Source: Candidatus Koribacter versatilis Ellin345 (GTDB lineage Bacteria > Acidobacteriota > Terriglobia > Terriglobales > Acidobacteriaceae). From it: a stretch of DNA of 64,000 bases. Below, piece by piece: positions 38,995 through 63,026 of the stretch. The notes below the pieces were generated by a model. That model searched no databases, was not told the DNA's origin, and was given only the letters and a program-made list of their open reading frames with translations. A program made the translations under genes and the position numbers. Location: positions 744,001 through 808,000 of the forward strand of contig NC_008009.1 in NCBI RefSeq assembly GCF_000014005.1, in the 5' to 3' direction. Numbering within the stretch: position 1 is the stretch's first letter; each line of letters begins with the position of its first letter.

Positions 38995-39335
38995 TTCCTT
39001 CCAATTCTCACTGCGATCACAAATCGACCAGTGCACTCGTGATGTGCGAACTCGTGGATTCCCGGCTTTTTATCTAGAGACATCGCGAACGATGTCTGGA
39101 TGTTTGCCGTTGTCTGGTTGCGCCTTGTTGCTGACGGGGGATGCGGCCGATTGCCAGATTTCCGATGGCAACGAAATGGGAAAAAGTTCTGTTTTGGCCA
39201 AAAAAGACAAAACAAAGACCGTTTTATCGTAAACGGTCATGAAAATGATTGACTCAGGCTAATAAAGGGCATTAGGATTTTTGGCGATCCCGAACTATGC
39301 GTCGCCTTTCACAGGAAGGCGGGAGGAAGATCGTC
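38995..39335. other. intergenic region with hairpin and promoter-like sequence
   Basis: About 340 bp between tRNA-Lys and the second TonB-dependent receptor. It holds a GACCGTTT-TATCGT-AAACGGTC hairpin (39217-39238) with T-rich sequence on its minus-strand side (AAAAAAGACAAAACAAAGACC on the plus strand), and a TTGACT (39249-39254)/TAGGAT (39273-39278) pair with an 18-bp spacer, a fair sigma-70-like promoter for the receptor. No coding sequence is convincing. Confidence 0.55.
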
Positions 39336-42695: not shown

Positions 42696-44450
42696 ATGTC
42701 AAAGCAAAGTAGTTCGAACTACGATAAGTTCCCCGTGATTGCGGTTCCCGATGCGACCTGTGACGTGGGCTGGAAGGCTATTACACAGACGCTCAGGAAG
42801 ACGGCGATCCAAGGGAGATTTGTAGTTTGTGTGGAGTGTTATCCGGGCTGTTTTGAAGGAAATATTGAAGCCGAGTTGGTGAATGGACTGAAACCGCACT
42901 CGGTCATTAGGTCAGCGGAGTGTTACAAGTCCGAAAATGAAATCAGAACACTAACTGCACGCGATCTCGGGGACGACCCCGTTTTCGCGTTTATGAACAA
43001 CTATGAACTCTCCGAGTTCCTCGACGAGCGCAAACTTGGAGAAAAGCGCGCCGATCTGAATACAGCCGACGGCCTGGTTTTGGTTATAGGAACCGGAGCT
43101 GCCCTGATTGCAGAACACTGGGACCTGCTGGTTTATTGCGACATGGCGCGTTGGAAGATTCAACAACGTCAGCGCGCCAACGAGATCGCCAACCTGGGAC
43201 TGGAGAACGCGACTGAACGTGCTTCGTTGAAATATAAGCGCGCCTTTTTTGTGGATTGGCGCGCCGCAGATCGCCTGAAGAAGCAACTCCTGCCGAAGAT
43301 TGATTTCGTACTCGACACCAACGATCGAGCTACGCCGAAGATGATCAACGGAGCGCAGCTTGCAGAAGGATTGCGGATCGCTGCGCACCGTCCATTCCGA
43401 GTCGTGCCATTCTTCGATCCTGGGCCGTGGGGCGGACAATGGATGAAGGAAGTTTGCGATCTACCGCGCGACGCCGAAAACTATGCATGGTGCTTTGACT
43501 GCGTTCCCGAAGAAAACAGCCTGTTACTGGCGTTCGGCGATGCGCGGGTCGAGATCCCGTCCATCAATCTGGTGTTTGCCCGCCCACATGAGTTGCTGGG
43601 AGAAGCGGTGCATGCTCGCTTCGGAACAGAGTTCCCGATCCGCTTCGACTTTCTCGACACGATGGATGGCGGCAACCTTTCTTTCCAAGTGCATCCGTTG
43701 ACCGAGTACATCCAGGAAAAGTTCGGGATGAACTACACGCAGGATGAGAGCTATTACATGCTCGATGCCACCGAAGAGGGCTGCGTGTATCTCGGATTGA
43801 AAGAGAACATCGATCGCGGGCAGATGATCGATGACCTGCATCTGGCGCAAGAGGGCGAGATCCCGTTCGACGCGGAAAAGTATGTCAATCGCTTTCCGGC
43901 GAAAAAGCATGATCACTTCTTGATTCCCGCCGGAACACCACACTGTTCGGGGAAGAACAGCATGGTGCTGGAGATCAGTGCGACTCCCTATATCTTCACG
44001 TTCAAGATGTGGGACTGGGGCCGTTTGGGTCTCGACGGAACCCCGCGACCGATTCACCTCGAGCATGGGCTTCGTAACGTGCAGTGGGACCGGACGACAA
44101 AATGGGTAGAAGAAAACCTGGTCAATCATACTTCGGAAGTCGACCGAGGCGAGGGTTGGGTAGAAGAACGGACAGGGCTGCACGAGCGCGAGTTCATTGA
44201 AACGCGGCGGCATTGGTTTACTACCCCGGTGCGACACAACACCAATGGCGGCGTGAATGTTCTGAATCTTTGCGAGGGTCGTGAGGCAATGGTAGAGAGT
44301 CCGACCAGCGCATTTCCGCCCTTCGTCGTCCACTTCGCGGAAACGTTCATCGTTCCGGCAGCGGTGGGTGAATACACGATCCGGCCTCATGGCGAGTCGG
44401 AAGGGAAGCGCTGCGCCACGATTAAGGCTTTCGTCCGTAGCAATCCTTAA
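42696..44450 (+). CDS. class I mannose-6-phosphate isomerase-like cupin protein, extended N-terminus
   Basis: A 584-residue protein, longer than the ~400 of classical ManA. The C-terminal ~330 residues carry the isomerase-type cupin: GPWGGQWM, FDFLDTMDGGNLSFQVHP (metal-site histidine), DESYYMLDATEEGCVYLGLKE and FLIPAGTPHCSGKNSMVLEIS. The N-terminal ~220 residues (VCVECYPGCFEGNIEAELVNG, LVLVIGTGAALIAEHWDLLVYCDMARWKIQQRQR) look like a nucleoside/uridine-kinase-like domain found fused to such isomerases. It would interconvert mannose-6-phosphate and fructose-6-phosphate. It lies 17 bp before a lipoprotein esterase gene, so the two form an operon after the receptor. Confidence 0.8.
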   Translation: MSKQSSSNYDKFPVIAVPDATCDVGWKAITQTLRKTAIQGRFVVCVECYPGCFEGNIEAELVNGLKPHSVIRSAECYKSENEIRTLTARDLGDDPVFAFMNNYELSEFLDERKLGEKRADLNTADGLVLVIGTGAALIAEHWDLLVYCDMARWKIQQRQRANEIANLGLENATERASLKYKRAFFVDWRAADRLKKQLLPKIDFVLDTNDRATPKMINGAQLAEGLRIAAHRPFRVVPFFDPGPWGGQWMKEVCDLPRDAENYAWCFDCVPEENSLLLAFGDARVEIPSINLVFARPHELLGEAVHARFGTEFPIRFDFLDTMDGGNLSFQVHPLTEYIQEKFGMNYTQDESYYMLDATEEGCVYLGLKENIDRGQMIDDLHLAQEGEIPFDAEKYVNRFPAKKHDHFLIPAGTPHCSGKNSMVLEISATPYIFTFKMWDWGRLGLDGTPRPIHLEHGLRNVQWDRTTKWVEENLVNHTSEVDRGEGWVEERTGLHEREFIETRRHWFTTPVRHNTNGGVNVLNLCEGREAMVESPTSAFPPFVVHFAETFIVPAAVGEYTIRPHGESEGKRCATIKAFVRSNP

Positions 44451-44467: not shown

Positions 44468-45388
44468 ATGCAACGTATGCATCGCGCTGTTGCGGTGTTT
44501 CTGTGCTGCCTTTCGCTGGCGGCGTGTGCCGCAGCCCAGCAATTACCGCCGACGGAGAAGTGGACAGCGACGGTCGCCGAGAGGTATGCGATCTACCCGG
44601 ACGTTGTGTATGGCACGGCAAATAACTACGCGCTGAAACTCGATGTTTGGCAGAGGAAAGATGCTAAGACTCCGGCGCCAACGTTGATCTATTACCACGG
44701 TGGCGGATGGATCTTTGGCGACCGAACGGGAGCGACACTCTACTTTCTCCCGTACCTCCAGATGGGCTGGAACGTAATCAATGTCGAATACCGCATGGCG
44801 AGCCAGTCACCGGCGCCCGCCGCGGTGGAAGATTGTCGTTGTGCGCTGCGGTGGGTTTATCGCAATGCGAAGCAGTACAACATCGACACGAAGAAAATAG
44901 TCGTTACCGGTCACTCCGCCGGTGGCCACCTATCCCTCATCGTCGGAATGCTCCCCGACGGCACGGGCTTGGATAACAACTGCATTGGCGATGAGAAATA
45001 CGGTGATGCGAAACTGGGCGTTGCAGCGATTGTTAATTGGTATGGACCCTCTGATGTTGGCGAACTCTTGCAAGGGCCGGAACTGAAGAATTACGCGATC
45101 ATGTGGATGGGAAGCCAAGTGGACGTGCAAACAGTCGCCAAGCGAGTCTCTCCGCTAACGTATGTGCGTCCGGGCCTGCCGCCTGTATTTACAGTGCATG
45201 GCGATGCGGATGACGTAGTGCCTTATGAGCAGTCTGTGCGCCTTCACAAAGCGCTCTCAGCGGCTGGAGTGCCCAATGAGTTGGTGACGATCAAAGGTGG
45301 CGGTCACGGCCAATTCAACGACGCGCAATTGGAGGACGCTTACACGAAACTGTATGCGTTTCTGCGAGAGCATGGGCTGATGCAGTAG
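44468..45388 (+). CDS. lipoprotein carbohydrate esterase, alpha/beta-hydrolase (BD-FAE/lipase-like)
   Basis: A 306-residue hydrolase. The N-terminus MQRMHRAVAVFLCCLSLAACAAAQ contains a lipobox-like LAAC, so it is probably a lipoprotein. HGGGWIFGDR forms the oxyanion hole, the nucleophile is the serine in VTGHSAGGHLSL, the acid lies in VHGDADDVVP and the histidine in GGGHGQFND. This is the BD-FAE/hormone-sensitive-lipase pattern of esterases that remove acyl or feruloyl groups from plant polysaccharides. It follows the isomerase gene by 17 bp. Its stop abuts the stop of the convergent mutarotase-like gene. Confidence 0.85.
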   Translation: MQRMHRAVAVFLCCLSLAACAAAQQLPPTEKWTATVAERYAIYPDVVYGTANNYALKLDVWQRKDAKTPAPTLIYYHGGGWIFGDRTGATLYFLPYLQMGWNVINVEYRMASQSPAPAAVEDCRCALRWVYRNAKQYNIDTKKIVVTGHSAGGHLSLIVGMLPDGTGLDNNCIGDEKYGDAKLGVAAIVNWYGPSDVGELLQGPELKNYAIMWMGSQVDVQTVAKRVSPLTYVRPGLPPVFTVHGDADDVVPYEQSVRLHKALSAAGVPNELVTIKGGGHGQFNDAQLEDAYTKLYAFLREHGLMQ

Positions 45389-46546
45389 TCAGGGTTTGCC
45401 GCTCGTGGGGATGCTTGCGAGACGACCGTCCTGGCTGTGAACGGCTAAGCTTCCCGACTCTTCTCGAAGGTCCGAAATGTCTGGCCAATCGCGCTCCATC
45501 GGAGTGACGAAGATTTGATAGCTCGTGGCGATCGTTTCACCAGCCTGAATTGTGCTGAATACGGGGACATCGAAGAGCGTCTTCATCTCTTTTGCGTGTT
45601 GTAGGCCGAGCGGAATAGGGCTATTCCCGAATTCCACGCCGCGTGCACGGGTGACGCCATTCCAAGGCGGATAGCTTCGCGCGCAATTCTCTTCCCAAAG
45701 AGCTATCCAGGGAAATTGGCAGCGGTCGAAGACGTAACCGGCCGCGAGTTCTAGGCGCCGATTGTGCACGGCGATGTATGCGTTCGATCGTTCTGGCTCT
45801 GTGAGAAGCGCAGCAACAAAGCCAGTGCCATTCTTATCAAATGGGAGAGACAGATCGACCAAGTGGCCCTTGATCCACGGCGCGTGCGGCCAGTCAAAGT
45901 CGCGATCCACGACAAGACTCTCCCGATCCTCATATCCTAACGGCCAGGTACGACATTGATTCGCCGACAGGTAGAGTTTGGCTTCACCTGCCGAGAAGAG
46001 CGGCTCTCCGAATGCTGCATGCTCGACCCATTGGAAATCGAGAGGAGAGTGCTTCACGTTTGTCACGCGCTCTTCGATGTGAACGGTGGATGCGCCGGCG
46101 GAAAGCAGAAGGGTGCGCTCGGCACGAAGACCGTAAACGGGCAACAAAGCTTCCATCGTGACAGACGCGCTTACATCGTCCGCGTTGCTGTAGGAGATTT
46201 TCCAGTCGCTGGCTACTGCTTCGCCATGCAAAGGCAGCCCTTGATTCGATTCGGATTCGTCCGGCAAGCCGAAATACCCTAGCGCCAGCGCGTGCCCGGT
46301 GTAACCGCAAAGCAGGCGCCCGATCGGACCGTCCCCATACGAGCTGGAGTGTAGTTGTGAGCTGAACTGCGAGGGCTCGATCGTTGACCACGGCGACTCG
46401 AACAGCGTGTTGTAGGGCGAGCCGCAGAGACGAAAATCTGCGATGTGTCCACCGCCGAGGAGCACTGTGATTTCGACCGTACCGTTCGTAAGGCGAAAGG
46501 CGCGTCGGCCCTTCCATGTTATGGGAGCGGCCTCGCAGCGATTCAT
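45389..46546 (-). CDS. aldose 1-epimerase-like (galactose-mutarotase fold) protein
   Basis: A 385-residue protein of the galactose-mutarotase superfamily: ITVLLGGGHIADFRLCGSPYNTLFESPW near the N-terminus, then GLPLHGEAVASDWKI with a conserved histidine (about 128), and EERVTNVKHSPLDFQWVEHAAFG with another near 180. Mutarotases equilibrate the alpha and beta anomers of a sugar before the 1-dehydrogenase step. It is the last gene of the six-gene minus-strand operon, its start lying one base after the stop of the SDR gene before it. The exact sugar is not known. A DUF4432/DUF4380-type non-catalytic homologue is an alternative. Confidence 0.7.
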   Translation of the reverse strand: MNRCEAAPITWKGRRAFRLTNGTVEITVLLGGGHIADFRLCGSPYNTLFESPWSTIEPSQFSSQLHSSSYGDGPIGRLLCGYTGHALALGYFGLPDESESNQGLPLHGEAVASDWKISYSNADDVSASVTMEALLPVYGLRAERTLLLSAGASTVHIEERVTNVKHSPLDFQWVEHAAFGEPLFSAGEAKLYLSANQCRTWPLGYEDRESLVVDRDFDWPHAPWIKGHLVDLSLPFDKNGTGFVAALLTEPERSNAYIAVHNRRLELAAGYVFDRCQFPWIALWEENCARSYPPWNGVTRARGVEFGNSPIPLGLQHAKEMKTLFDVPVFSTIQAGETIATSYQIFVTPMERDWPDISDLREESGSLAVHSQDGRLASIPTSGKP

Positions 46547-46547
46547 C

Positions 46548-47306
46548 CTAGATCGTCAATCCACCATCAATGGCAAAGGCTACACCAGTGACGAATGCTG
46601 ATTCGTCGGATACCAGGTATAGCGCGGCGAGCGCGATCTCTTCCGCAGTGCCGAAGCGGCCCATTGGCTGGCGTGCGATGAAATTCTTCTTTGCTTCCGC
46701 GGGATCGGGGAATGCGGCAAGTCGCTCAGAGAGAGAAGGTGTGTCCACCGTACCGGGGCAGAGGCAATTCACGCGAATATTGTCGCGAACGTAATCCAAC
46801 GCCATCGACTTCGTGAGCCCCACGACTGCTGCCTTCGTAGCGGTGTAACACGCGCGATCTACGACGGCCCGCAGAGCCGTAGCTGACGCGGTGTTCAGGA
46901 TCACTCCGCCGCCATGCTCCTTAAAGTGCGGAACAATCGCGTGGCAGAACAGGTACATACTTTTTACGTTGATGGCCATCGCGCGGTCCCACTGTTCTTC
47001 CGTGGTGACATCGATCTTGCCAGCCGGCACGATTCCTGCGTTGTTGAACAGGATGTCGATTTTTCCGAAGCGTCCGATCGCTGTGTTCAATGCGTTTTGT
47101 ACATCCGCGCTCTGACTGACGTCGCCCCGAAGCGCCAGGCAGATTCCGCCTGAACTGGTGATTTTTGAAGCCAGGTGTTCGAGTTTGCCGCCATCGAGAT
47201 CGATCGCGAGGATGTGGGCGCCTTCCGACGCAAATAGCTCGGTGGAGGCTTTGCCGATTCCAGCAGCGGCGCCCGTAACGATAGCGGTTTTTCCTTTGAG
47301 TTTCAT
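46548..47306 (-). CDS. SDR dehydrogenase, 2-keto-3-deoxy-aldonate dehydrogenase-like
   Basis: A 252-residue classical short-chain dehydrogenase. TGAAAGIG (about 11-18) binds NAD(P), NNAG is at about 88-91, and the catalytic YTATK follows a serine in NTASATA. VNCLCPGTVDTPSLSERLAAFPDPAEAKKNFIARQPMGRFGTAEEIA recalls 2-keto-3-deoxy-L-fuconate and -L-rhamnonate 4-dehydrogenases, which make the 2,4-diketo acid cleaved by FAH-family hydrolases. That assignment is by resemblance and context. Its ATG overlaps the stop of the other SDR gene by 4 bases. Confidence 0.85.
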   Translation of the reverse strand: MKLKGKTAIVTGAAAGIGKASTELFASEGAHILAIDLDGGKLEHLASKITSSGGICLALRGDVSQSADVQNALNTAIGRFGKIDILFNNAGIVPAGKIDVTTEEQWDRAMAINVKSMYLFCHAIVPHFKEHGGGVILNTASATALRAVVDRACYTATKAAVVGLTKSMALDYVRDNIRVNCLCPGTVDTPSLSERLAAFPDPAEAKKNFIARQPMGRFGTAEEIALAALYLVSDESAFVTGVAFAIDGGLTI

Positions 47307-48118
47307 TTCTTCGTGGATGCTCCTGTGCCGCCTTCCTGGAAGGCCATGCCGCCTGCGGGAACAAGCATACCGCCGTCCACCAGCAGTGCGGCGCCCGTGA
47401 TGAACGAAGACATTGGCGAGGCGAGATAAAGAACAGCGTCGGCGACCTCGTCCGGTTTACCGATGCGACCGAGCGCGTGCATTCGATCGCAGGTGCGAAT
47501 CACGGATTCCGGGTCGGGTGAAAGACTCGCCGCCCAGTGGAGCATCGGCGTGTCGATGGTACCGGGGCAAACGCAATTCACGCGAATGCCTTTATGCGCA
47601 TAGTCGAGGGCCATGGCCCGCGCCAGACCGAGGACCGCGTGTTTCGAGGTGACGTAAGCCGCGGAGTTCTGGATCGCGGTGAAACTCTGCACCGAGCCGA
47701 GCACGACGATTGCACCGCCATTGCTTATCATGTGCGGCACGCAGAACTTCGAGATGAGAAAGCACCCTTTGAGGTTCACTCCGATGACGCGGTCCCAATC
47801 GTCTTCAGGAGTGGTAATGACGTCGCCGTAGTATTGAATGCCGGCGTTGCTGACCAGGATGTCAATCTGCGAATGCTTCGTGATGACGTCGCCGACAGCT
47901 TGCTCGACATCCTTCGACTTGCTGACATCGCATCGAAAGAATTTGCACTCACCGCCGTGCGCGCGGATCGCGGCTGCAGTCTTCGTGCCTGCGTCCTCGT
48001 TAGGATCGAGAATGGCGACTGACGCACCGGCCAATGCGATCTTGCGGGCGCAGGCTTCACCGATACCCATCGCGCCACCGGTAACAACGGCGACCTTGCC
48101 GGAGAGATCGATCTTCAT
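47303..48118 (-). CDS. SDR dehydrogenase, sugar 1-dehydrogenase-like
   Basis: A 271-residue classical short-chain dehydrogenase: TGGAMGIG (about 13-20), SNAG (about 91-94), catalytic serine in VLGSVQS and YVTSK. The tail VNCVCPGTIDTPMLHWAASLSPDPESVIRTC...HALGRIGKPDEVADAV resembles L-fucose/aldose 1-dehydrogenases of non-phosphorylative pathways, which oxidise the sugar to the lactone. It is 33% or so like its neighbour by eye only, clearly not a recent duplicate. It sits after the GH38 gene (10-bp gap) and overlaps the next SDR gene by 4 bp. Confidence 0.82.
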   Translation of the reverse strand: MKIDLSGKVAVVTGGAMGIGEACARKIALAGASVAILDPNEDAGTKTAAAIRAHGGECKFFRCDVSKSKDVEQAVGDVITKHSQIDILVSNAGIQYYGDVITTPEDDWDRVIGVNLKGCFLISKFCVPHMISNGGAIVVLGSVQSFTAIQNSAAYVTSKHAVLGLARAMALDYAHKGIRVNCVCPGTIDTPMLHWAASLSPDPESVIRTCDRMHALGRIGKPDEVADAVLYLASPMSSFITGAALLVDGGMLVPAGGMAFQEGGTGASTKK

Positions 48119-48128
48119 AGCCGTTCCC

Positions 48129-51100
48129 CTATCGCGGAGCTGTATGGAGCCGAATCGTTAATACCTGGAATGGTTTGATGGAGACTGCAATGCCGCCGGA
48201 ACCGACGGGAAGCGGGGCCTGATTGTCCTCGAGAAGGTTACAAGACCATGCCTGTTCGACCTTGACGTACTTGCTGGCGATTGTGAACTGAGAAGCCTCG
48301 CCCGAGGCATCCTGCAGCCGAAGGATTGTGCGATCGCCGTCTTCTGCACGCTTCCAGGTGAGCAGATTGATTTTCGAATTGCTGATCGCGAGCAGTTCAG
48401 CTTGTTGGCTCGGGAGCGGCGAGGTGTCTGTCGAAGCGCCGATGTCGTCGCGTTCCAACGGAGTCAGCGCATTCCAGCCGAAGTGATTGAGGGCTGCGGG
48501 ATCGAACTTCGCGTCGCTGGTGACGGCGTAGCGGAAGGTGAAATCGCCGCCTTGCCATGCTGGAAAGTTCGTGCCCCAGTAATTGTTCATCAGCCACGAG
48601 AAGATCGTGCTGCTTTTTGGCTTGAATTCCGCGGGCCATGCGCCGCGCATGATGTCACCGAAGGTCGTGAGTGGTGCGTCGAGCGGAACCACCGTTGCGG
48701 ATATCTGTGGATTGTAGACGGCGGCCCATGTCGTAGGCAGATACCACTCGCGGCTGCCGCCTGCGAGTTCGTCTTTCGCGGGATTCACCCACCCTGTTTG
48801 CGAGCCGTAAGTGAACTGCGGATCGGCGACTGCGAAGGGGAAGGCGATGTAAGCGGATTCGCGAGTGAGCACGCGTTCTTTGTGAACGCGATACGTAAGG
48901 AAGACTTGCTTTTGCGAACTGGGTAGGAAGATCTCAGTTTCAATTGAAGTCGTATTGGTCGCACTCGAATGCATCGTGATCCTGATGCCGAGGGGCGTGC
49001 GCTGTGCCGAAACGACGGTGGCCGACTGCGCTGCATGTGCGGTCAGCGCAGGAAGATTGAGCCCGGCGCCGAATCGATAGAGCGAGTTGCGTGGGTATTC
49101 GTCACCGCCGGTGACGTAGAGATACGCGCCGAATTTATAGGGACTGTTCTGGTCCACCAATTCGCGGCCGAGTTGTTTGTCATAAACACTCGCGATGGCG
49201 CCGCCTGAAGGCGCGATCGTAACGCGATAGAAGTCATTCTCGAATACATTGCCGTGAAGGCTTTCGGGTTCGTGGGAAGCCGCACTGGTCGGGCGAATCG
49301 TGAAGAGCTTGTATCCGATTGCAGGGACGTCCGAGGCGGTGAACCGCACCCGCACATTGCCAGGACCGAACCCCGGAAGCGAGATGCCCTTGCCTTTGAA
49401 GCGAACCTCGAGTGGAACTTCAGATCCCGTCGTGGCATCCACGAGCGTGCTGCCGTCCGGCAGGTCGGTTTCGACGACGCCTGAACGTTTCCAGTTGAGC
49501 GAATTGAAAACCGCGACTGACGCTTCTTTCGGATGGACCAACGCTTCCAATTGCGCCCATCCACGCTGGATGGATTCGTCGATGTCGTTGCGCGCGCGTG
49601 TGACGCGGGCCCCCTTCAACGCGATCTGGTCTTCGCTCTGGTGGTGTTCCGGCTGCGTCGTCGCGCCAACGTAGGTCCAGGTGTGCTCGTCATACGTCAG
49701 CTCGTTCCACCATGCGTCATCGAGCAAAGTGTGATCTGGAATAACACGAGGGTCGATCGACGATACAGCGGCACCCAACACCTCTGCGGTTGCAATCCGA
49801 TGCTGGTTCTCGCGATGAATCGCAGTGTGGGCGGCGTCACTTCCGTAGCCGTCCTCCCAGTAAGGGCCGAAATCGCCGCGATAAACAGGGATTTCCCCTT
49901 TCCACTCTTGCTCGATCTGCGCCATCGCGGAGTGAACCGTCGAGAACTCGAGTTTCGGCCAGGCGTATTCGTGGTTGAACGTGCCAACAATTTCGCTTTG
50001 TTCCTTCGCGAGCGGAGTGTTCTCCAACTGCGTACCGAAAATGATCGCGGTGTTCGCCGTATAGTCGGGACGCGTGTAGGCCTGCAGGAAGACCGGCAGC
50101 GAATCACGTATAGATTCCATGCGCCACGGTCCGCCAAATAAAGTATGGGCTTGCAGGTAAGCGCGGGAATACCACATCAGCACCCGGTTGCCATCTGGGC
50201 CTTCCCAATAAAACGGAGACTTCTCATTCCAACGGCCGAGCAGCATGATCGGCGCGCGCCAACTGTTGCTCGCTGCGATGAAGTATTTGATTCCCGCGTC
50301 ATGAAGCACCGATGCGTATCCCCATGTGTACGCGGGAACGTCGACGATTTGCGCGGCATCTGCGGTGGGGAGTTTGTACTCACGCGCGAGTTGATGCTGG
50401 TTGTAAAACGAGCGCGCCAGCGCCTCCACTGAGGCATTGCCGGTGTGCTGGTTGGCGAACTCCGGTGGAATCGTGATGCTGCCATCGCGAACGTATTGCA
50501 AGAACTGCTCGCGCGCTTCAGCAGAACGGCCGTTCAGATATTGAGTGGCCACCCAGCTACCGTCGAGTGTCCAGCGGAAATCTGGCGTCTTCTGGATCAA
50601 GCCCATCGCCGCGTCAATAGATTGAGAGTGGAGTTCCGCGACCTTCGCGGCGTAATCGGTGAAGCCCACATCAAGGTGTTCGTGCGGGATGATCGCAACC
50701 GCCCATTTCTTTGCAGGAGTGATCGTCGCGGTCGCCTTCGAGCCGCTAAGGCTTGCGGTTGCTTCTTGAGGACCGCTCCATTCAGGGACATCGAAGCTCG
50801 CACGGATCTCGCCGAACTCGCACTCGGAGGAGAACTCTTTTGCCAGTTGAGTGCTGCCTGTCTGAAGTTGGATCGTTCCACTCTTGGGCAGCGCGCCTGC
50901 GCTCGCGAATACGTCGACGACTTCCGTACTGCCATTCTTGCCGGCACGATAGAAGATCGTTGGTTCAATTTGCGCACTGAACGCGTGGTCGTCGTAAGTT
51001 GCAGAGGGATCTTGGGTGAGTTCCAGTGCGTCGTACACCAAGCCGGTGTGTCCGGGAGCGATGGCGCCGAGAGAATTCTGCGGAGTGGCAGGAGCGTCCA

Positions 51101-51626
51101 TTGCGGTGAATACAAGCGTGTTCTCGCCTTGATGTAGCCACGAAGCGGGAATCGCGATTACTTTTTCATCCGTCGACGTTTGGGGAACAAACGTTCCTTC
51201 CCAGTCGCCAGCGTTGAAATCGAGCTTGGGATGAAAGTAAAAGTAACCCGAGTGGCCGTTGATTTCCAGTTTCAAAAACGAAAGACGCGGCGTCTCGTAC
51301 AACATCGCGATTTTAAGGTGGTAAACGCCCCGCGGAGCATCTTTCAACGCAAACTTCAGCGTGTAAGGATGCACTCTCCCACCCGTCATTCCGTTCGCCG
51401 GGCCTGGTTGAAAGCGGTACCAGTCAGAGTCCTTGTTGTGTCCAACGACGAACGTTAGGTCACTCTTCGGGTCCGCGTGGTCGATGCCCTGGTCGCGAAA
51501 CTCGCCCGAAGAGTGATTGAAGGTCCCGAGCTTCCAGATGCTTTGCTCTTGTGCGCCAGCTATAGTTGGCGAAATCAACGATGCGAACAGAACTGCCTGG
51601 GCCAGGAAATTCCACCGGGTCTTCAT
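48129..51626 (-). CDS. secreted GH38-like glycosidase with N-terminal PL4-type carbohydrate-binding domain
   Basis: A 1165-residue exported enzyme from the ATG at 51624-51626 (signal peptide MKTRWNFLAQAVLFASLISPTIAGA). Residues about 28-205 (IWKLGTFNHSSGEF...LSFLKLEINGHSGYFYFHPKLDFNAGDWEGTF) resemble the carbohydrate-binding third domain of family 4 rhamnogalacturonan lyases. A linker domain (about 215-305) precedes a GH38-like catalytic start with HEHLDVGFT, giving zinc-site residues H315, H317 and D319; the C-terminal ~500 residues form beta-sandwiches (NDFYRVTIAPSGGAIASVYDKQLGREL). I cannot place the nucleophile aspartate with certainty. It starts two bases after the dehydratase stop, within the operon. 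Specificity for alpha-mannosides or another linkage is open. Confidence 0.78.
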   Translation of the reverse strand: MKTRWNFLAQAVLFASLISPTIAGAQEQSIWKLGTFNHSSGEFRDQGIDHADPKSDLTFVVGHNKDSDWYRFQPGPANGMTGGRVHPYTLKFALKDAPRGVYHLKIAMLYETPRLSFLKLEINGHSGYFYFHPKLDFNAGDWEGTFVPQTSTDEKVIAIPASWLHQGENTLVFTAMDAPATPQNSLGAIAPGHTGLVYDALELTQDPSATYDDHAFSAQIEPTIFYRAGKNGSTEVVDVFASAGALPKSGTIQLQTGSTQLAKEFSSECEFGEIRASFDVPEWSGPQEATASLSGSKATATITPAKKWAVAIIPHEHLDVGFTDYAAKVAELHSQSIDAAMGLIQKTPDFRWTLDGSWVATQYLNGRSAEAREQFLQYVRDGSITIPPEFANQHTGNASVEALARSFYNQHQLAREYKLPTADAAQIVDVPAYTWGYASVLHDAGIKYFIAASNSWRAPIMLLGRWNEKSPFYWEGPDGNRVLMWYSRAYLQAHTLFGGPWRMESIRDSLPVFLQAYTRPDYTANTAIIFGTQLENTPLAKEQSEIVGTFNHEYAWPKLEFSTVHSAMAQIEQEWKGEIPVYRGDFGPYWEDGYGSDAAHTAIHRENQHRIATAEVLGAAVSSIDPRVIPDHTLLDDAWWNELTYDEHTWTYVGATTQPEHHQSEDQIALKGARVTRARNDIDESIQRGWAQLEALVHPKEASVAVFNSLNWKRSGVVETDLPDGSTLVDATTGSEVPLEVRFKGKGISLPGFGPGNVRVRFTASDVPAIGYKLFTIRPTSAASHEPESLHGNVFENDFYRVTIAPSGGAIASVYDKQLGRELVDQNSPYKFGAYLYVTGGDEYPRNSLYRFGAGLNLPALTAHAAQSATVVSAQRTPLGIRITMHSSATNTTSIETEIFLPSSQKQVFLTYRVHKERVLTRESAYIAFPFAVADPQFTYGSQTGWVNPAKDELAGGSREWYLPTTWAAVYNPQISATVVPLDAPLTTFGDIMRGAWPAEFKPKSSTIFSWLMNNYWGTNFPAWQGGDFTFRYAVTSDAKFDPAALNHFGWNALTPLERDDIGASTDTSPLPSQQAELLAISNSKINLLTWKRAEDGDRTILRLQDASGEASQFTIASKYVKVEQAWSCNLLEDNQAPLPVGSGGIAVSIKPFQVLTIRLHTAPR

Positions 51627-51628
51627 GA

Positions 51629-52822
51629 TCACCATTTCGGTTGCGTGATGACACCGCCGCCGCGGCGAGGGTCGTCTGTCCACGCGCCCATTTCGTGCTG
51701 CTTCGAGAGTTCGTGGTAGCGAGCGAGCTTGTCTCGGTCCAGCGACACGCCTAGTCCGGGGCCGGTCGGGACTTTCATCGCCCCGTTCTCGAACTTCAGC
51801 ATGCCGCCTTCGAGGATGTCATCCTTCAGGTGGTGGTAGTGGGAATCGCAGGCCAGGGTCAGATTCGGCAGGCACGCGGCCAGATGCAGCATTGCAGCCT
51901 GCGAGATGCCGAATTCCGCACCGCTATGCATGCCGGCGTCCACACCGAGCGCTTCGCAAATCTGCCCTGCGAGCTTGGCGCGATGAATTCCGCCATACCA
52001 GTGCGGATCGAGCAGCACGACATCCAGCACGTCGGCCATGATGTTTGGCGCGAGATCTTCGAAGGCAAACACCGACATGTTCGAAGCCAACGTGACCCAC
52101 GGAGCCTTTGCATTCACACGTTGCATCGCGCGCATGCCCCAGACGGGGTCTTCGAGGTACTCCATGTTGTAGTCGTGCAGGCGGCGGGCGACGTCAATCG
52201 CGGTAGTTGCCGTCCACACTGCGTTGGGATCGAGGCGAATACGGTGTTTTGGGAACTGCTTGCGCAGCGAGATGAAGGTATCAATCTCTTCATCTGGCGG
52301 CAGAACGCCGTTTTTGTATTTGAGCGTTTTAAAGCCGTAGCGATCAACGAGCGCCTTCGCGAAAGCAACCATCTGCTCAGCGTTCGAGACTTCGCCCGTC
52401 CCCTCGTCATTTGCATAGCGATAGAACAGGTAGGCAGCGAAGGGAACTTCGTCGCGGATGCGTCCGCCAAGGATGTCACAAACCGGCCGGTTCAGCGCCT
52501 TGCCTTGAATGTCGAGGAGCGCGAACTCGATACCGGCAAACCCGAGAGCGAATCCGAAAAGCTTCACCGAACTCGGCGTTGCGACCTTCCAGCGAATCCT
52601 CTCAAGATTCATCGGGTCTTCGCCAATCAGTTGCGGCTTGAGATCGGCAAGCTGTCCTTCGCGGCTCGCACCTGTATAACACTCCCCGAGGCCGGTGATG
52701 CCTTCGTCGGTTTCGACCTCAATAATGATGCGCGAAAAACCAGGATGAGAGCCGATGGAGTAGCGCAAAGGCGCTTCAATCGGGATGAACGCACGCGTCC
52801 AGCGAATATCGGTAATTTTCAT
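51629..52822 (-). CDS. enolase-superfamily acid-sugar dehydratase, glucarate-dehydratase subgroup
   Basis: A 397-residue enzyme from the ATG at 52820-52822 (upstream GGAG). Capping domain about 1-130, barrel about 135-370. The basic pair is K168-Y-K170 (LKYKNG), metal ligands D198 (LDPNAVW), E224 (YLEDPVWG) and probably N248 (ASNMS), with D272 (LDPHWYGG) and H299 (GMHSGAEFGIS) as the acid-base dyad. These line up with the KxK, LDPN, ATNM, ADPH and HSNNH elements of glucarate dehydratase. It would remove water from a six-carbon acid sugar to a 2-keto-3-deoxy acid. In this operon the substrate is more likely an aldonate made by the SDR and lactonase. Confidence 0.87.
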   Translation of the reverse strand: MKITDIRWTRAFIPIEAPLRYSIGSHPGFSRIIIEVETDEGITGLGECYTGASREGQLADLKPQLIGEDPMNLERIRWKVATPSSVKLFGFALGFAGIEFALLDIQGKALNRPVCDILGGRIRDEVPFAAYLFYRYANDEGTGEVSNAEQMVAFAKALVDRYGFKTLKYKNGVLPPDEEIDTFISLRKQFPKHRIRLDPNAVWTATTAIDVARRLHDYNMEYLEDPVWGMRAMQRVNAKAPWVTLASNMSVFAFEDLAPNIMADVLDVVLLDPHWYGGIHRAKLAGQICEALGVDAGMHSGAEFGISQAAMLHLAACLPNLTLACDSHYHHLKDDILEGGMLKFENGAMKVPTGPGLGVSLDRDKLARYHELSKQHEMGAWTDDPRRGGGVITQPKW

Positions 52823-52836
52823 GAGAGCTCCGCCAG

Positions 52837-53679
52837 CTAACGCTGGTTGGCGAGTAATTGTCCCTTGATGCCGGCCCGCACGCGACAAATATGCCAGCGG
52901 CTGAGATTGGCAAAATACATCTCATCGTGATGCGGACCGCCGAAGGCGATATTCGTGGGACTGGCGAGCATCGTTCCTTCACTATCGGCGACGAATAGTT
53001 TGACTTCACCGTTCGGTGAAACGCAATACACATTGTGCGACGCGTAGCAGGTGACGTACAGATTTCCGGTCGCATCGAGTGCCGCGCCATCCGGAACGCT
53101 GTGCAGGCCGCTCCCGTATACGCGGGCTTTACCCGTCACTTTACCGCCCGCAACCGGCACGGCGAGTACATTGTCTTCTGTGCTTTGTACAACGAAGAGC
53201 GTCTTGTCGTCGGCACTCAGCGAGAGGCCATTCGGGAATGAGAGATCCGAAAGCAGTTTCTCAATCTTGCCATTCGGTCGCAACACGAACAAAAATCCAT
53301 CGTCGCCGTGAAACTCACCGGAGTCGCTGAAATAAAGATTGCCTTCGCGATCGAAGACGGCAAAATTCGGCGTGCGAAGGCGGTAGCGGCCCACGCGATC
53401 CCACGACCGGACGACTTTTCCGGAACGATCGAGTTGAATGAGTGCGCTGAGTTTAAAGTTGCAAACGAACAATTCCTGGCGCGACGAAAATGTCAGGCCA
53501 AGATTGAAGCCGCCGAGTGTGGTCACCAGCTTCACTTTTCGTTTCGCGTCGATGCGATAAATTTGGCCGAGTTCACCGCCGGCCCAGAGGTTTCCGTCGG
53601 CATCGAAGGCAAGACCTTCAGGATGGTCAAGGCCATCGGCGAAGACTTCGAAACGATCCATCGAGACAAGCGAGGTCAT
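52837..53679 (-). CDS. SMP-30/gluconolactonase-family lactonase
   Basis: A 280-residue six-bladed beta-propeller. The family metal-site segments are visible: HPEGLAFDADGNLWAG near the N-terminus (glutamate ligand), PNFAVFDREGNLYFSD, FPNGLSLSADDKTLFV (asparagine) and VPDGAALDATGNLYV (aspartate). It would open a sugar lactone produced by a 1-dehydrogenase. It is the first gene of the six-gene operon, with the dehydratase starting 14 bp after its stop. ATGs at 53679 and 53661 are both possible and neither has a good ribosome-binding site. A probable -10 (TATACT, 53698-53703, minus strand) and a palindrome lie just upstream. Confidence 0.88.
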   Translation of the reverse strand: MTSLVSMDRFEVFADGLDHPEGLAFDADGNLWAGGELGQIYRIDAKRKVKLVTTLGGFNLGLTFSSRQELFVCNFKLSALIQLDRSGKVVRSWDRVGRYRLRTPNFAVFDREGNLYFSDSGEFHGDDGFLFVLRPNGKIEKLLSDLSFPNGLSLSADDKTLFVVQSTEDNVLAVPVAGGKVTGKARVYGSGLHSVPDGAALDATGNLYVTCYASHNVYCVSPNGEVKLFVADSEGTMLASPTNIAFGGPHHDEMYFANLSRWHICRVRAGIKGQLLANQR

Positions 53680-53697
53680 GTTCGAATTAACGCAAAA

Positions 53698-53743
53698 AGT
53701 ATATCAATATCACTTGTTTGATAAACAAAAAAACATATATAGT
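53698..53743. promoter_or_regulatory. divergent promoters with TTGTTT-GAT-AAACAA operator
   Basis: A perfect 15-bp palindrome, TTGTTT-GAT-AAACAA, covers 53714-53728. Toward the minus strand a TATACT box (53698-53703) lies 10 bases away; toward the plus strand TTGTTT (53714-53719) is 18 bp from TATAGT (53738-53743). The palindrome thus overlaps the -35 side of promoters for both the six-gene operon and the FAH-type gene. A GntR- or LacI-type repressor is likely, but none is encoded in the window. Confidence 0.6.
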
Positions 53744-53793
53744 TTCTTTCTGGCGGAAGTCAAGCAAACTCTGACGGTTTCGGGAGTGAATCG

Positions 53794-54666
53794 ATGCGTT
53801 TGGTGCAATACCGGGCAAACGGTGAAAGTCGCCTCGGCCTTGTGGTTGGTGACGGTGCGTTTGTCGACGTTGCTTCGGCTGCCGAGAAGGCTGGCAGGGA
53901 TGCCGCGCCTTTCCAATCGACATTGGCGTTATTGGAGTCAGGTCCGGATGCGCTCGAGTTCGTACGCACGCTTGGCGTAGGCCAGGATGTTGTTCACGTT
54001 GACGGCCGCGATTTGGATTTCCCGGTCGCTGCGAAAAAGATCGTCGCCATCGGTTTGAACTATCTCGACCATGCGAAAGAGGCTGGCCAGTCGATTCCTA
54101 AGACACCTCTGTGCTTTGCGAAATTCACGTCGAGTCTTTCCGGACCATACGATCCCATCCGATTGCCGGACGCCGAAGCGCAAGTGGACTTCGAAGGCGA
54201 ACTCGGAGTCGTGATCGGAAAGCGCGCGCATCGGGTGGCAGAATCCGAGGCAATGGAATACGTAGCCGGGTATGTAGTCTTCAATGATGTTTCGGAGCGC
54301 CGCTCGCAGTTTGCCGACGGTCAGTGGACGCGCGGGAAGTCTTGCGACACGTTTTCGCCGAACGGACCGTACCTCGTCACCCGAGACGAAGTGGCGGATC
54401 CTGGCAATTTGCGAATTACCACGCGCGTGAATGGCGCGGTGATGCAAGATTCGAACACGAACCAATTGATTTTCAAAATTCCTGAACTCATTTCTTATCT
54501 CTCGCACAGCTTCACCTTTCATCCTGGCGACATCATCGCCACCGGCACACCGCCGGGAGTGGGTTTCTCGCGCAAGCCTCCGCTTTATTTGCGCGAGGGC
54601 GATCTCGTGGAAGTAGAAATTGAAAGTGTCGGGAGAATCGCAAACCGTGTCGAGCGCGGTTACTAA
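53794..54666 (+). CDS. FAH-family hydrolase, 2,4-diketo-3-deoxy-aldonate hydrolase-like
   Basis: A 290-residue protein of the fumarylacetoacetate-hydrolase family (COG0179). Metal ligands are E134 and E136 in DFEGELGVVIG and D165 in VFNDVSERR; IGLNYLDHAKEAG and TGTPPGVG are family landmarks. WTRGKSCDTFSPNGPYLVTRDEV matches the pattern of 2,4-didehydro-3-deoxy-L-rhamnonate hydrolases, which cleave the diketo acid to pyruvate and lactate. It diverges from the lactonase-dehydratase-SDR operon, sharing the palindrome between them. GGGAG precedes the ATG. An acylpyruvase-type or homoprotocatechuate-pathway role is possible without the context. Confidence 0.87.
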   Translation: MRLVQYRANGESRLGLVVGDGAFVDVASAAEKAGRDAAPFQSTLALLESGPDALEFVRTLGVGQDVVHVDGRDLDFPVAAKKIVAIGLNYLDHAKEAGQSIPKTPLCFAKFTSSLSGPYDPIRLPDAEAQVDFEGELGVVIGKRAHRVAESEAMEYVAGYVVFNDVSERRSQFADGQWTRGKSCDTFSPNGPYLVTRDEVADPGNLRITTRVNGAVMQDSNTNQLIFKIPELISYLSHSFTFHPGDIIATGTPPGVGFSRKPPLYLREGDLVEVEIESVGRIANRVERGY

Positions 54667-54688: not shown

Positions 54689-55798
54689 ATGCGTCTTCTG
54701 TTCAAGTTTGTGTGTGCGCTTCTCGTTCTCTCTGCGGTTGCTTTCGCAGAGTCCAAGCACTTCGACTGTAATCCGTCGTTTGGGGCACAAGCCCCCTGGC
54801 AAGGCGCCGATGCGGCGTATTCCATTCCCCTGCAGGATGGCCGCGTGGTCTGGATCTTCGGCGACACACTGTATGGAGACAAGCGCGAAGTCAACGGGAA
54901 CGATCCGAAGATGGTGCACAACTCTATCGGCATTTCGACCTGTAAGAACGGCGAATGGAAGCTCGATTACTCGATCAAGCGTGATGAAAAGGGCAACTTT
55001 GACACCTTCTTCAAGCCGCAACGGAACGACGGGACCTACTACTGGGCGCTCGATGGCGTGGAGCACAACAATGAGTTGTGGATCACGCTGGTGTGCGTGC
55101 GCAATAAGCCGAATTCCGACGCTTTCGCGCTCGGATTTGAAGTTTGCGGCACCGACCTGGCACATGTAACGGGCATAAAGGATGTCCCGCAGAACTGGAA
55201 GATCTCGTACTCGCCGCTCGTTGCGGAGAGCGTGCACGCCAACCCTTCAGCCTCCGCGCTGGTGGACAGCGACAATCTCTACATCTTCACACTGTACGAG
55301 CAGGGGTCGCGGCCGCAGATCCTTACGCGCATTCCACTGAAAGGATTGAGGGACCCGCAGAAAAGCCTTCAATATCTCGGTAGCGACGACAAATGGCACG
55401 ACGGCCTGGAACCGGCAAAGGCGAAGGCTGTCATGAACAAAGGCGCATCCGAGATGTCGGTGCGTTACCACCCTGAGTTAAAGAAGTGGGTCGCCGTGAT
55501 GGTGGATCCGCAGATCTTCTCGGACAAAGTGATCCTGCGCACCGCACCTTCCATGAGTGGCCCATGGACCGAAGGCGATGTGATCTATCAGGTCCCGATC
55601 ATGCAGAAGAGCGATCCGCGTTACGACAAGGACACATTCTGCTACGCGGGCAAGGAGCATCCGGAGTTCGAGAAGGCCGGCGAACTCCTGTTCACTTATG
55701 TGTGCAACACGATGAAGCCCGCGAAACTGCCTGCTGAGACCGACGTGTATTTCCCGCAGGTAGTGCGCATGCCGATGCCGGAGGCCGCGAAGAAGTAG
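54689..55798 (+). CDS. secreted DUF4185-type protein
   Basis: A 369-residue exported protein (signal peptide MRLLFKFVCALLVLSAVAFAES) from the ATG at 54689, preceded by GAGG. The pattern DGRVVWIFGDTLYGD...MVHNSIGIS at about 50-75 and later SVRYHPELKKWVAVMVDPQ and GPWTEGDVIYQVP match five-bladed-propeller DUF4185 proteins, related in shape to glycoside hydrolases of families 43 and 117. Function is not known; cell-wall or polysaccharide binding is plausible. It starts 22 bp after the FAH gene, so probably in one transcript. Its stop abuts that of the convergent esterase gene. Confidence 0.7.
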   Translation: MRLLFKFVCALLVLSAVAFAESKHFDCNPSFGAQAPWQGADAAYSIPLQDGRVVWIFGDTLYGDKREVNGNDPKMVHNSIGISTCKNGEWKLDYSIKRDEKGNFDTFFKPQRNDGTYYWALDGVEHNNELWITLVCVRNKPNSDAFALGFEVCGTDLAHVTGIKDVPQNWKISYSPLVAESVHANPSASALVDSDNLYIFTLYEQGSRPQILTRIPLKGLRDPQKSLQYLGSDDKWHDGLEPAKAKAVMNKGASEMSVRYHPELKKWVAVMVDPQIFSDKVILRTAPSMSGPWTEGDVIYQVPIMQKSDPRYDKDTFCYAGKEHPEFEKAGELLFTYVCNTMKPAKLPAETDVYFPQVVRMPMPEAAKK

Positions 55799-56605
55799 TC
55801 AACGTTCAAGAACACGTTTGCAGAATGCGAGCGTGCTGCGAACGTGTTCGGTCCAATACGGCCAGTCATGACCGCCCGGGAACTCTTCATAGGTGTGTGG
55901 AACGCCTAGATCGGAGAGTTCCCGGTGCAGTTTCCGGTTCTGTTCAATCAGAGAGTCCTCGGTTCCGCAATCGAAACGTAATGGTGGCAGATGCGTGAGG
56001 TTCGTCTTCGCCCAGTACAGCAGGTCTGTCTCTTGTTCACCGGCGAATAGAAACGCGTCAGGCGGATACGGAATAAAGCGCGAGAGCTGAGATGCGTGCG
56101 TTACGGAGGAGTGCGCCGAGATTCCAAGCGTGCGTGCGGCATATTTCATTCCGAGTCGCATCGCACCGAAGCCGCCCATTGATAAGCCAGCGATAAAAAA
56201 CTTATCGGATCGCAATTGTGGGAACAGTTCACGCAAGCAAGTCGGGATATCGTCAGCGATCCAGGCTTCATAGTTTGCGTGGGCATGCGGCACATAACCT
56301 GATCCGTCGCCCCACAAGCCATCGGAAGGCATTGCGATCATCATCGGCGTGGTGCTGCCATCTTGCAGCATCGCGAGTCCAGTGCGATCGATTGCGCCAT
56401 TCAGCCACCAATTCCATTGGCAGCCGTAAACGCCGTGCAGCAAAAGCAACAGAGGAACGTCGTGCATCGACTCGAATCCGGGCGGGGCAAAGAGCAGTAC
56501 ATCGCCGCGGCCCGGAAGCGCGTTGCCGCGAAAGTTGAGGAACCGCAGGTTTTCACTCCCGGGAATCAGCCCGGAAAGCTGTGCGTTCGGAAATTGTTTT
56601 TGCAT
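55799..56605 (-). CDS. esterase of the PF00756 (esterase D / Fes) family
   Basis: A 268-residue alpha/beta-hydrolase without a signal peptide. LLLLLHGVYGCQWNWW contains the oxyanion glycine, AGLSMGGFGAM the nucleophile serine, GTEDSL the acid and GGHDWPYW the histidine. The family includes feruloyl, acetyl-xylan and S-formylglutathione esterases. It is the last gene of a three-gene minus-strand operon (ROK kinase, GH31, esterase), starting 12 bp after the GH31 stop, so deacylation of an oligosaccharide fits. A tributyrin-type carboxylesterase is the neutral call. Confidence 0.85.
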   Translation of the reverse strand: MQKQFPNAQLSGLIPGSENLRFLNFRGNALPGRGDVLLFAPPGFESMHDVPLLLLLHGVYGCQWNWWLNGAIDRTGLAMLQDGSTTPMMIAMPSDGLWGDGSGYVPHAHANYEAWIADDIPTCLRELFPQLRSDKFFIAGLSMGGFGAMRLGMKYAARTLGISAHSSVTHASQLSRFIPYPPDAFLFAGEQETDLLYWAKTNLTHLPPLRFDCGTEDSLIEQNRKLHRELSDLGVPHTYEEFPGGHDWPYWTEHVRSTLAFCKRVLER

Positions 56606-59104: not shown

Positions 59105-59131
59105 GTGAGCCCTCATGAGGAATTGGAGCGG

Positions 59132-60166: not shown

Positions 60167-60208
60167 TTTTTGGTTGATTTAGGAAGAATCCGCGCGTACT
60201 CTATCGAC

Positions 60209-60772: not shown

Positions 60773-60788
60773 CGGACCATAACCGGAA

Positions 60789-62934: not shown

Positions 62935-62995
62935 CTAAAAGAACATAAAACGTCTATTAAATAGAACAAAGCGATGCTATAAAGTTGCTTTATTG
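62935..62995. promoter_or_regulatory. repeated half-sites upstream of the sugar porter and Tat protein genes
   Basis: The divergent gap has AGAACATAAA (about 62939-62948) and AGAACAAAG (about 62962-62970), direct repeats whose minus-strand form is TGTTCT preceded by T and A runs, about 23 bp apart. They share TGTTCTTTT with the dyad region at 60151-60170. A regulator serving several sugar genes is suggested; half-site only. Confidence 0.4.
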
Positions 62996-63026
62996 CCGAA
63001 TACCGTCTTTTGCTCGGGAGTCCCCT

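Follow-up and report, generated by a model that had tools for sequence, protein, structure and literature searches.

A probable Route III sugar-oxidation operon with a GlucD-subgroup dehydratase in an acidobacterial polysaccharide-utilisation locus

An operon of six genes and a divergent gene, at 45389-54666 of the window (the whole 64-kb stretch of DNA that was analysed), lie inside a polysaccharide-utilisation locus and, as judged from their sequences, probably encode a sugar-oxidation pathway of the non-phosphorylative Route III type. The genes were re-identified by open reading frames (ORFs) and Pfam/NCBIfam scans. The observations cover which genes are present, their order and conservation, their families and their active-site residues; from these we infer all the activities, which sugar is used and which way the flux runs. 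Monosaccharides would be released by a secreted GH38 protein together with esterases, DUF4185, GH31 and a six-hairpin enzyme, and their anomers would be equilibrated by a DUF4432 protein. SDR2 would then oxidise the aldose to a lactone, which would be opened by the SMP-30 protein, and the GlucD-subgroup dehydratase would convert the aldonate to a 2-keto-3-deoxy acid. SDR1 would oxidise the 4(S)-hydroxyl of this acid, and the FAH protein would cleave the 2,4-diketo acid to pyruvate and a small acid. D-mannose, processed via 2-keto-3-deoxygluconate (KDG), is the likeliest sugar, with about an even chance of being the right one; the acid would therefore be D-mannonate, the intermediate KDG, and the products pyruvate and D-glycerate.

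The six minus-strand genes follow the order SMP-30, dehydratase, GH38, SDR2, SDR1 and DUF4432 with intergenic gaps of 14, 2, 10, -4 and 1 bases, and the FAH gene (53794-54666, plus strand) diverges from them across a 114-base intergenic region. The ORFs and Pfam/NCBIfam scans confirm this arrangement, which the sequence-only reading had described; all the genes that it listed are present, but the protein that it called 'mutarotase-like' is a DUF4432 (PF14486) protein. The divergent promoter region contains an inverted repeat, TTGTTT-GAT-AAACAA (53714..53728, no strand assigned), a candidate operator that was spotted by eye in 53680-53793. The TTGTCTGACAA repeat of the relatives is absent from the window's divergent promoter. 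The system reaches well past 45389-54666 on both sides: the operon belongs to a larger polysaccharide locus, which starts at 39.3 kb, continues past the end of the window and contains a TonB receptor, esterases, DUF4185, GH31, a ROK kinase, isomerases, a sugar porter and a six-hairpin glycosidase. Of 397 genomes of the order, 18 carry the operon module, and all of these belong to a single family. Most of the 17 others in the family have the block in the same order, some of them without GH38, SDR1 or FAH, and this recurrence indicates that the operon is not a chance arrangement.

The dehydratase (51629..52822, minus strand; PF13378, 180 bits) is an acid-sugar dehydratase of the enolase superfamily. 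The KxK (K168/K170), A-S-N-M (246-249) and H-S-G-A-E (299-303) motifs noted earlier are all found in the sequence and alignment, with N248 as the third metal ligand. The GlucD subgroup is recognised by KxK at strand 2, Asp-Glu-Asn metal ligands and a His-Asp dyad; K168/K170, D198, E224, N248, D272 and H299 align with 3vdg and are invariant in the relatives. The closest PDB entries (3vdg, 3vc5, 4it1 and 3va8) belong to this subgroup and share the catalytic residues, the top match being 3vdg, a 'probable glucarate dehydratase' (279 bits). The score against the glucarate dehydratase model TIGR03247 is 166.2 bits with a cut-off of 828.7, that against the L-rhamnonate dehydratase model is 30.6 of 393 bits, and the protein is ~50 residues shorter than GlucD. 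Its residues and scores assign the window dehydratase to the GlucD subgroup and not to glucarate dehydratase. The KxK, the Asn third metal ligand and the His/Asp dyad would suit a genuine glucarate or galactarate dehydratase in a sugar cluster whose SDRs act on something else, but the model score, the shorter chain and the neighbours, which are an aldose-type SDR, a lactonase and a mutarotase-like gene and not aldarate genes, make this explanation highly improbable. The subgroup is presumed to be monofunctional for glucarate (PMC7246345), whereas the context of the window dehydratase is aldose oxidation. Assignment of the sugar via PDB relatives failed; the nearest structures carry 'probable' or 'putative' names only.

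Relatives of the dehydratase that are 44-47% identical adjoin GH67, KDG kinase, Eda, a uronate isomerase of the BH0493 type (the structure model matches BH0493 with 48% identity and Z 49.4) and an SDR that scores near D-mannonate oxidoreductase, which implies that these relatives dehydrate D-mannonate. The aligned residues of the mannonate-context dehydratases are nearly identical to those of relatives found with GH38/DUF4185. In contrast to the 44-47% identical relatives, the window clade is not co-located with the uronate isomerase, oxidoreductase, KDG kinase and Eda. Many active-site-loop positions differ in the alignment between the window dehydratase (KYKNG, SNMSVFAF, DPHWYGG and HSGAEFGIS) and the mannonate-context group (HKLKGG, TNTVVVNF, DTTFWGG and HSSGELGIQ), so the substrate of the window dehydratase may differ.

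SDR2 (47303..48118, minus strand) is a predicted aldose 1-dehydrogenase of the AldT/aldohexose-dehydrogenase-like type. Its best PDB match is 3vtz, a 'glucose 1-dehydrogenase' (204 bits), the AldT-type 2dtd scores 179 bits, and the score against the aldose dehydrogenase model PRK06398 is 254.7 bits (cut-off 341). AldT is an aldohexose dehydrogenase used on mannose (PMC6901390). The likeness of SDR2 to AldT and a GH38 protein with intact zinc/nucleophile residues were both counted for the scheme.

SDR1 (46548..47306, minus strand) is a predicted 2-keto-3-deoxy-acid 4-dehydrogenase on the basis of its PDB matches (4dqx, BDH2 2ag5 and L-KDFDH 8y4j/8xwk) and its aligned active site. It carries the type-1 L-KDFDH ligand set R148-T183-R192-R214 and the Ser-Tyr-Lys triad; all seven type-1 L-KDFDH residues are present in window SDR1 and ten family orthologues, and R148, T183, R192, F211, R214 and Q215 are kept in these orthologues. 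Trp252 of L-KDFDH contacts the C6 methyl, and the equivalent residue is Leu in window SDR1 and Leu, Phe or Met in the orthologues. L-KDFDH, an NAD-dependent enzyme, requires a 4(S)-OH, and the C4 stereochemistry of the L-KDR dehydrogenase is opposite (PMC11199699). In its PDB matches and aligned active site, SDR1 resembles the 4(S)-specific L-KDFDH, whereas the L-rhamnose pathway has a 4(R)-specific LRA5-type dehydrogenase; the type-1 site of SDR1 would select the 4(S)-hydroxyl, which argues against L-rhamnose (4R). The earlier proposal of a different sugar is thus upheld indirectly, and the neighbourhoods favour a KDG-yielding hexose (D-mannose). L-KDFDH takes D-KDG at ~1% of its L-KDF efficiency (PMC11199699); that D-KDG is accepted was counted for the scheme, and the ~100-fold preference for L-KDF against D-mannose/KDG.

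The full type-1 Arg/Thr ligand set of SDR1 would also fit an L-fucose (or L-galactose) pathway in which a GlucD-type dehydratase stands in for L-fuconate dehydratase, yielding pyruvate and L-lactate (or L-glycerate). The FAH protein resembles rhamnonate/fuconate hydrolases, and L-KDFDH types 3 and 4 are tied to L-fucose via gene context (PMC11199699). However, the locus has no recognised fucosidase family, SDR2 is closer to AldT than to 17beta-HSD14 (L-fucose dehydrogenase), the dehydratase best matches GlucD-like proteins and not L-fuconate dehydratase, and the SDR1 family has replaced Trp252; we consider this pathway quite improbable.

The first gene of the operon encodes a 280-aa lactonase of the SMP-30/gluconolactonase family (52837..53679, minus strand; PF08450, 107 bits), whose PDB matches include SMP-30 lactonases and regucalcin. 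The DUF4432 protein (45389..46546, minus strand; PF14486, 40.9 bits), a presumed aldose mutarotase, gave no match in a PDB sequence search. The FAH-superfamily protein (PF01557, 256.5 bits) is a predicted 2,4-diketo-3-deoxy-acid hydrolase: its best family match, NF053535 (2,4-didehydro-3-deoxy-L-rhamnonate hydrolase), scores 256 bits with a cut-off of 500, and its top PDB match is 8gsr, a 2,4-diketo-3-deoxyrhamnonate hydrolase.

The glycosidase built into the operon (48129..51626, minus strand; PF01074 68, PF14683 65 and PF17677 49 bits) is a secreted GH38-family protein, its signal peptide recognised by eye, with an N-terminal PL4-domain-III-like module. PF01074, PF07748 and PF17677 score above cut-off, the HxD, catalytic Asp and zinc His are present, and the zinc/nucleophile set H318, D320, D430 and H649 is kept in 20-21 of 21 homologues. 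Its GH38 membership is distant, with no match in a PDB sequence search, and we infer its specificity from family GH38 alone. On one side of the operon, the plus strand encodes a TonB-dependent Oar-like receptor (39297..42545; PF25183, 557 bits), a 584-aa PMI-like cupin protein (42696..44450) seen in the neighbourhood maps and a BD-FAE/acetyl-esterase-like secreted hydrolase (44468..45388; PF20434, 203.6 bits). The PMI-like protein, so labelled from a motif reading only and matching no Pfam/NCBIfam family, is conserved beside the module in Acidobacteriaceae and Bacteroidota. The other side contains an esterase-fold hydrolase (55799..56605, minus; PF00756, 48.9 bits), an alpha-glucosidase-like GH31 glycosidase (56618..59116, minus; PF01055, 387 bits; alpha-glucosidase MalA, 517 of 800 bits), a ROK-family sugar kinase (59132..60076, minus; PF00480, 169.5 bits; ROK glucokinase subfamily, 163 of 260 bits), two cupin phosphoglucose-isomerase-like proteins (60161-60772 and 60789-61565, plus; PF06560, 60 and 58 bits) and an MFS sugar porter (61567..62898, minus; PF00083, 353 bits; TIGR00879, 352 bits, above cut-off). 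The start of a six-hairpin glycosidase homologue (62985..63998, plus), which ends at ~65,270, past the window end, shares ~40% identity with proteins encoded next to related dehydratases; the model of a co-located protein of this family ('c3') has a six-hairpin glycosidase fold with close-scoring GH78, GH94, GH65 and GH116 matches, so it names no sugar. The ROK kinase and the PMI-like protein could handle mannose conventionally, which counts against the D-mannose route.

Adjoining FAH is a secreted DUF4185 protein (54689..55798, plus strand), which scores 68.8 bits against PF13810 (cut-off 39.5) and is predicted from sequence to be GH183-like. The GH183 (DUF4185) criterion is two catalytic Asp ~18 apart; D40, D58 and E254 are invariant, D40/D58 in twelve aligned proteins. 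GH183 is an endo-D-arabinanase family (PMC10115798, PMC10509167), and the substrate of DUF4185/GH183 enzymes is D-arabinan (PMC10115798). The DUF4185 protein hints at D-arabinose, against D-mannose. In the same Route III for D-arabinose (or D-xylose), it would cut D-arabinan, the D-arabinose would be converted by oxidation to D-arabinonate and by dehydration to D-2-keto-3-deoxypentonate, and C4 oxidation and cleavage would give pyruvate and glycolate. The DUF4185 gene lies directly behind FAH, the Trp in contact with the C6 methyl is missing from SDR1, and DUF4185/DUF5005 proteins, merged in one neighbourhood cluster ('c2'), are repeatedly found next to related dehydratases of Acidobacteriota, Bacteroidota and Kribbella. 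L-KDFDH also uses D-KDP, and a pentose Route III is known (PMC6336799). The DUF4185 family profile matches the endo-alpha-D-arabinanase 8hhv (E 8e-7), but at 31 bits this match is weak, the locus has no recognised exo-D-arabinofuranosidase of GH172 or GH116, the other context of the dehydratase family is mannonate and KDG, and SDR1-less genomes retain Eda; D-arabinose is an unlikely sugar. Use of mycobacterial arabinomannan by GH38 and DUF4185 was considered initially and then kept only among the rivals, since the context of the dehydratase points to mannonate and no family of exo-D-arabinofuranosidases was recognised.

The fate of KDG in the D-mannose reading can be compared with the distribution of Eda. 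An Eda match is found in all six operon-bearing genomes without SDR1 and in 5 of the 12 with SDR1 (p 0.025 by a Fisher test that ignores shared ancestry); after genomes under 90% complete were dropped, the association is not significant (p 0.098). The window genome contains SDR1 and FAH, and a search for Eda in it gave no match. The six relatives without SDR1 do not bear out the description of the pathway as 'complete'. An aldolase was expected beside the operon in these SDR1-less genomes; instead, the additional gene conserved at that place encodes a GntR-FCD regulator. A glycerate 2-kinase is present and was counted for the mannonate/KDG reading. We tentatively propose a hexose Route III: oxidation of D-mannose would give D-mannonate, a D-mannonate dehydratase of the GlucD subgroup would turn this into KDG, and C4 oxidation and hydrolysis would yield pyruvate and D-glycerate, taking the place of KDG kinase and Eda in Eda-less genomes.

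L-fucose route 3 (FucM, FucA, FucB, FucC, FucF and FucG; Xanthomonas and Herbaspirillum) has the same step logic and a FAH-type hydrolase, and, Trp252 apart, window SDR1 has the type-1 ligands of FucF. In contrast to that route, the window has a GlucD-subgroup dehydratase, an AldT-like 1-dehydrogenase, an SMP-30 lactonase, DUF4432 and a built-in GH38, and its sugar is probably not L-fucose. D-mannose oxidation in Thermoplasma acidophilum (AldT, mannonate dehydratase and KDG aldolase) employs a dehydratase of another family, the xylose-isomerase-like superfamily, and cleaves KDG with an aldolase, whereas the window has a 4-dehydrogenase and FAH. Both share an AldT-like 1-dehydrogenase and the proposed conversion of D-mannose to D-mannonate and KDG (PMC6901390). 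The L-rhamnose pathway (LRA1-LRA6), like the window, combines an SDR 1-dehydrogenase, a lactonase, an enolase-superfamily dehydratase, an SDR 4-dehydrogenase and a FAH hydrolase; its L-KDR dehydrogenase has the C4 stereochemistry opposite to that of L-KDFDH, and the window dehydratase scores low against L-rhamnonate dehydratase, as noted above. The pentose Route III of Herbaspirillum huttiense yields pyruvate and a small acid through a 4-dehydrogenase and a FAH hydrolase (PMC6336799), as proposed for the window, but acts on pentoses with a D-arabinonate dehydratase of the UxaA/GarD superfamily. The sequence-only proposal of a variant non-phosphorylative route with an SDR 1-dehydrogenase, a lactonase, an enolase-superfamily dehydratase, an SDR 4-dehydrogenase and a FAH hydrolase is well supported at the family and residue level, but the product would be D-glycerate and not lactate, if the sugar is D-mannose.

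A GlucD-subgroup D-mannonate dehydratase would, if true, give the subgroup its first non-glucarate function and would be a further solution in addition to UxuA and ManD. The dehydratase relatives are widespread (at least 539 candidate stretches in one scan), and if they are D-mannonate dehydratases of glucuronate/mannose catabolism, many soil-bacterial 'glucarate dehydratase-like' proteins would be re-annotated. The KDG 4-dehydrogenase/FAH branch, if true, would be a new fate of KDG that bypasses kinase and aldolase.

The operon in the window comprises six minus-strand genes (45389–53679) in the order SMP-30, dehydratase, GH38, SDR2 (the proposed aldose 1-dehydrogenase), SDR1 (the proposed 2-keto-3-deoxy-acid 4-dehydrogenase) and DUF4432 (a presumed mutarotase), and a FAH gene (53794–54666) that diverges from this block across 114 bases. 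The ORF reading reproduced the gene order, the divergent FAH gene and the gaps of 14, 2, 10, −4 and 1 bases that the sequence-only reading had described, and each assignment is backed at the family level by Pfam and NCBIfam scans. Because both flanks hold the same gene kinds that recur beside the operon in relatives, out to a six-hairpin glycosidase (start 62985, end ~1.3 kb past the window), the unit is a polysaccharide locus of ~26 kb rather than a stand-alone operon. The putative six-hairpin glycosidase-like family, which has no Pfam domain (window 62985–63998 onward, L113:6485–8734 and L077:11224–13356; L-numbers denote loci with related dehydratases in other genomes), co-occurs with the dehydratase both in Acidobacteriota and in Kribbella. 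A 584-aa cupin protein with PMI-like motifs (42696–44450) matches no Pfam or NCBIfam model and has counterparts of 52–77% identity at other loci, in taxa that range from Bacteroidota to Acidobacteriota; a tandem pair of cupin-type phosphoglucose-isomerase-like genes (60161–61565) lies inside the same locus.

A close dehydratase (68–100% identical) was found in 18 of the 397 genomes searched in the order, all within one family. The six-gene block is intact in most of them, and some are without GH38, SDR1 or FAH. Genes found repeatedly near the block encode a GntR-FCD regulator, RhaT-family transporter, ROK kinase, PMI-like cupin protein, Oar-type TonB receptor and DUF4185 protein. At L139, L022, L138 and L137, the palindrome TTGTCTGACAA or close variants, which hold GntR/FCD-type half-sites, lie upstream of the SMP-30 gene and adjoin the regulator gene. 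Upstream of SMP-30 in the window, neither this type of palindrome nor a GntR-FCD regulator gene is present; positions 53714–53728 carry TTGTTTGATAAACAA.

The window dehydratase groups with the GlucD subgroup (top PDB matches 3vdg, 3vc5 and 4it1), which is presumed monofunctional (PMC7246345). It keeps the KxK motif, the Asp-Glu-Asn ligands and the His/Asp dyad, and scores 166 of 829 bits against the NCBIfam glucarate dehydratase model, far under the cut-off. Scanning of named genomes gave at least 80 loci, mostly with 44–49% identical dehydratases, and two main neighbourhood kinds among the loci listed. The first contains DUF4185 or DUF5005, a GH38 or GH92-like protein (the latter label is our own reading of the sequence), an acetyl-esterase-like gene, an SDR2-like gene, SMP-30 and DUF4432, sometimes with SDR1-like and FAH genes. 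The second contains a GH67 alpha-glucuronidase, genes of GH3 or GH43 type, and a protein that matches no Pfam family and that its predicted fold marks as a putative BH0493-type uronate isomerase (48% identity, TM 0.91–0.94 and Z 49.4 against BH0493). Adjoining it are an SDR scoring near D-mannonate oxidoreductase, a 2-keto-3-deoxygluconate (KDG) kinase and a KDPG aldolase (Eda), and the dehydratase would complete the path from glucuronate through fructuronate and mannonate to KDG. Since the dehydratases of the two locus kinds have nearly the same residues in the printed active-site segments, the most economical reading is that the dehydratase family acts on D-mannonate, with glucuronate as its source at one kind of locus and mannose at the other. 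The window clade carries its own residues at these segments, unlike the relatives at both locus kinds, and in a quick tree it falls apart from the main group, on a long branch in a position that the program marks as unsure. The function of the relatives is therefore not simply transferable, and the argument for the window enzyme is carried by the shared neighbourhood.

For the window operon, D-mannose would be converted through D-mannonate and KDG to pyruvate and D-glycerate. SDR2 resembles 3vtz and Thermoplasma AldT, which has been used for mannose oxidation (PMC6901390). The nearest solved relatives of SDR1 are 4dqx, human BDH2 and L-2-keto-3-deoxyfuconate 4-dehydrogenase (L-KDFDH). Alignment of SDR1 and ten family orthologues revealed the complete type-1 L-KDFDH pattern (Arg148, Thr183, Arg192 and Arg214; PMC11199699) together with Val89, Phe211 and Gln215, and Leu, Phe or Met at the position of Trp252, which in L-KDFDH touches the C6 methyl group (PMC11199699). 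This class requires a 4(S)-hydroxyl and takes L-KDF, L-KDGal and D-KDP, and D-KDG weakly (PMC11199699). The 4-dehydrogenase-like SDRs that adjoin FAH (L102, L112, L119, L120 and L131) or lie at L099:12107–12859 mostly show the type 3 (R-R-R-T) or type 4 (R-R-F-T) pattern of L-KDFDH, with Ala in the final place in the protein of L119. L-KDF may not be the natural type-3 substrate, as the published type-3 enzyme is weak on it (Km 6 mM; PMC11199699). The nearest solved enzyme to FAH is the 2,4-diketo-3-deoxyrhamnonate hydrolase 8gsr; because its score against the NCBIfam model of that hydrolase is about half of the cut-off, FAH is ranked by sequence as a relative rather than a proven member.

SDR1 is missing, at the threshold used, in six of the 18 operon-bearing genomes, all six of which have an Eda match (that of genome G485 is a fragment under the cut-off), compared with five of the 12 that have SDR1. 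No Eda match was found in the window genome, G210 or G502, each of which has SDR1 together with a close FAH; nor was UxuA found in the window genome. At several of the Eda loci inspected, a gene resembling a PfkB-type KDG kinase in sequence adjoins Eda. The pattern fits KDG as a shared intermediate and is only suggestive, because the 18 genomes are related and the one-sided Fisher p of 0.025 becomes 0.098 after genomes <90% complete are dropped. Glycerate 2-kinase (MOFRL), present in 12 of 12 genomes examined, is consistent with the KDG route and not discriminating.

D-arabinose stays a candidate substrate, because DUF4185 falls in the endo-D-arabinanase family GH183 (PMC10115798, PMC10509167) and the profile of the window family matches endo-alpha-D-arabinanase in the PDB. 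With a ROK kinase and a PMI-like protein in the locus, an oxidative route for mannose would be redundant, and we infer the specificity of GH38 from its family alone. The operon consists of ordinary parts with known pathway logic; for such logic with a GlucD-subgroup dehydratase, and probably also with this substrate and product, no description was found in the literature within reach of the search. At L117:10001–14994, L106:8410–19581, L091:10001–14873 and L118:1100–3881, GlucD-like dehydratases 44–47% identical to the window enzyme adjoin a BH0493-type uronate isomerase, an SDR, KDG kinase and/or Eda or GH67, and these enzymes probably represent an unrecognised D-mannonate dehydratase family in glucuronate catabolism.
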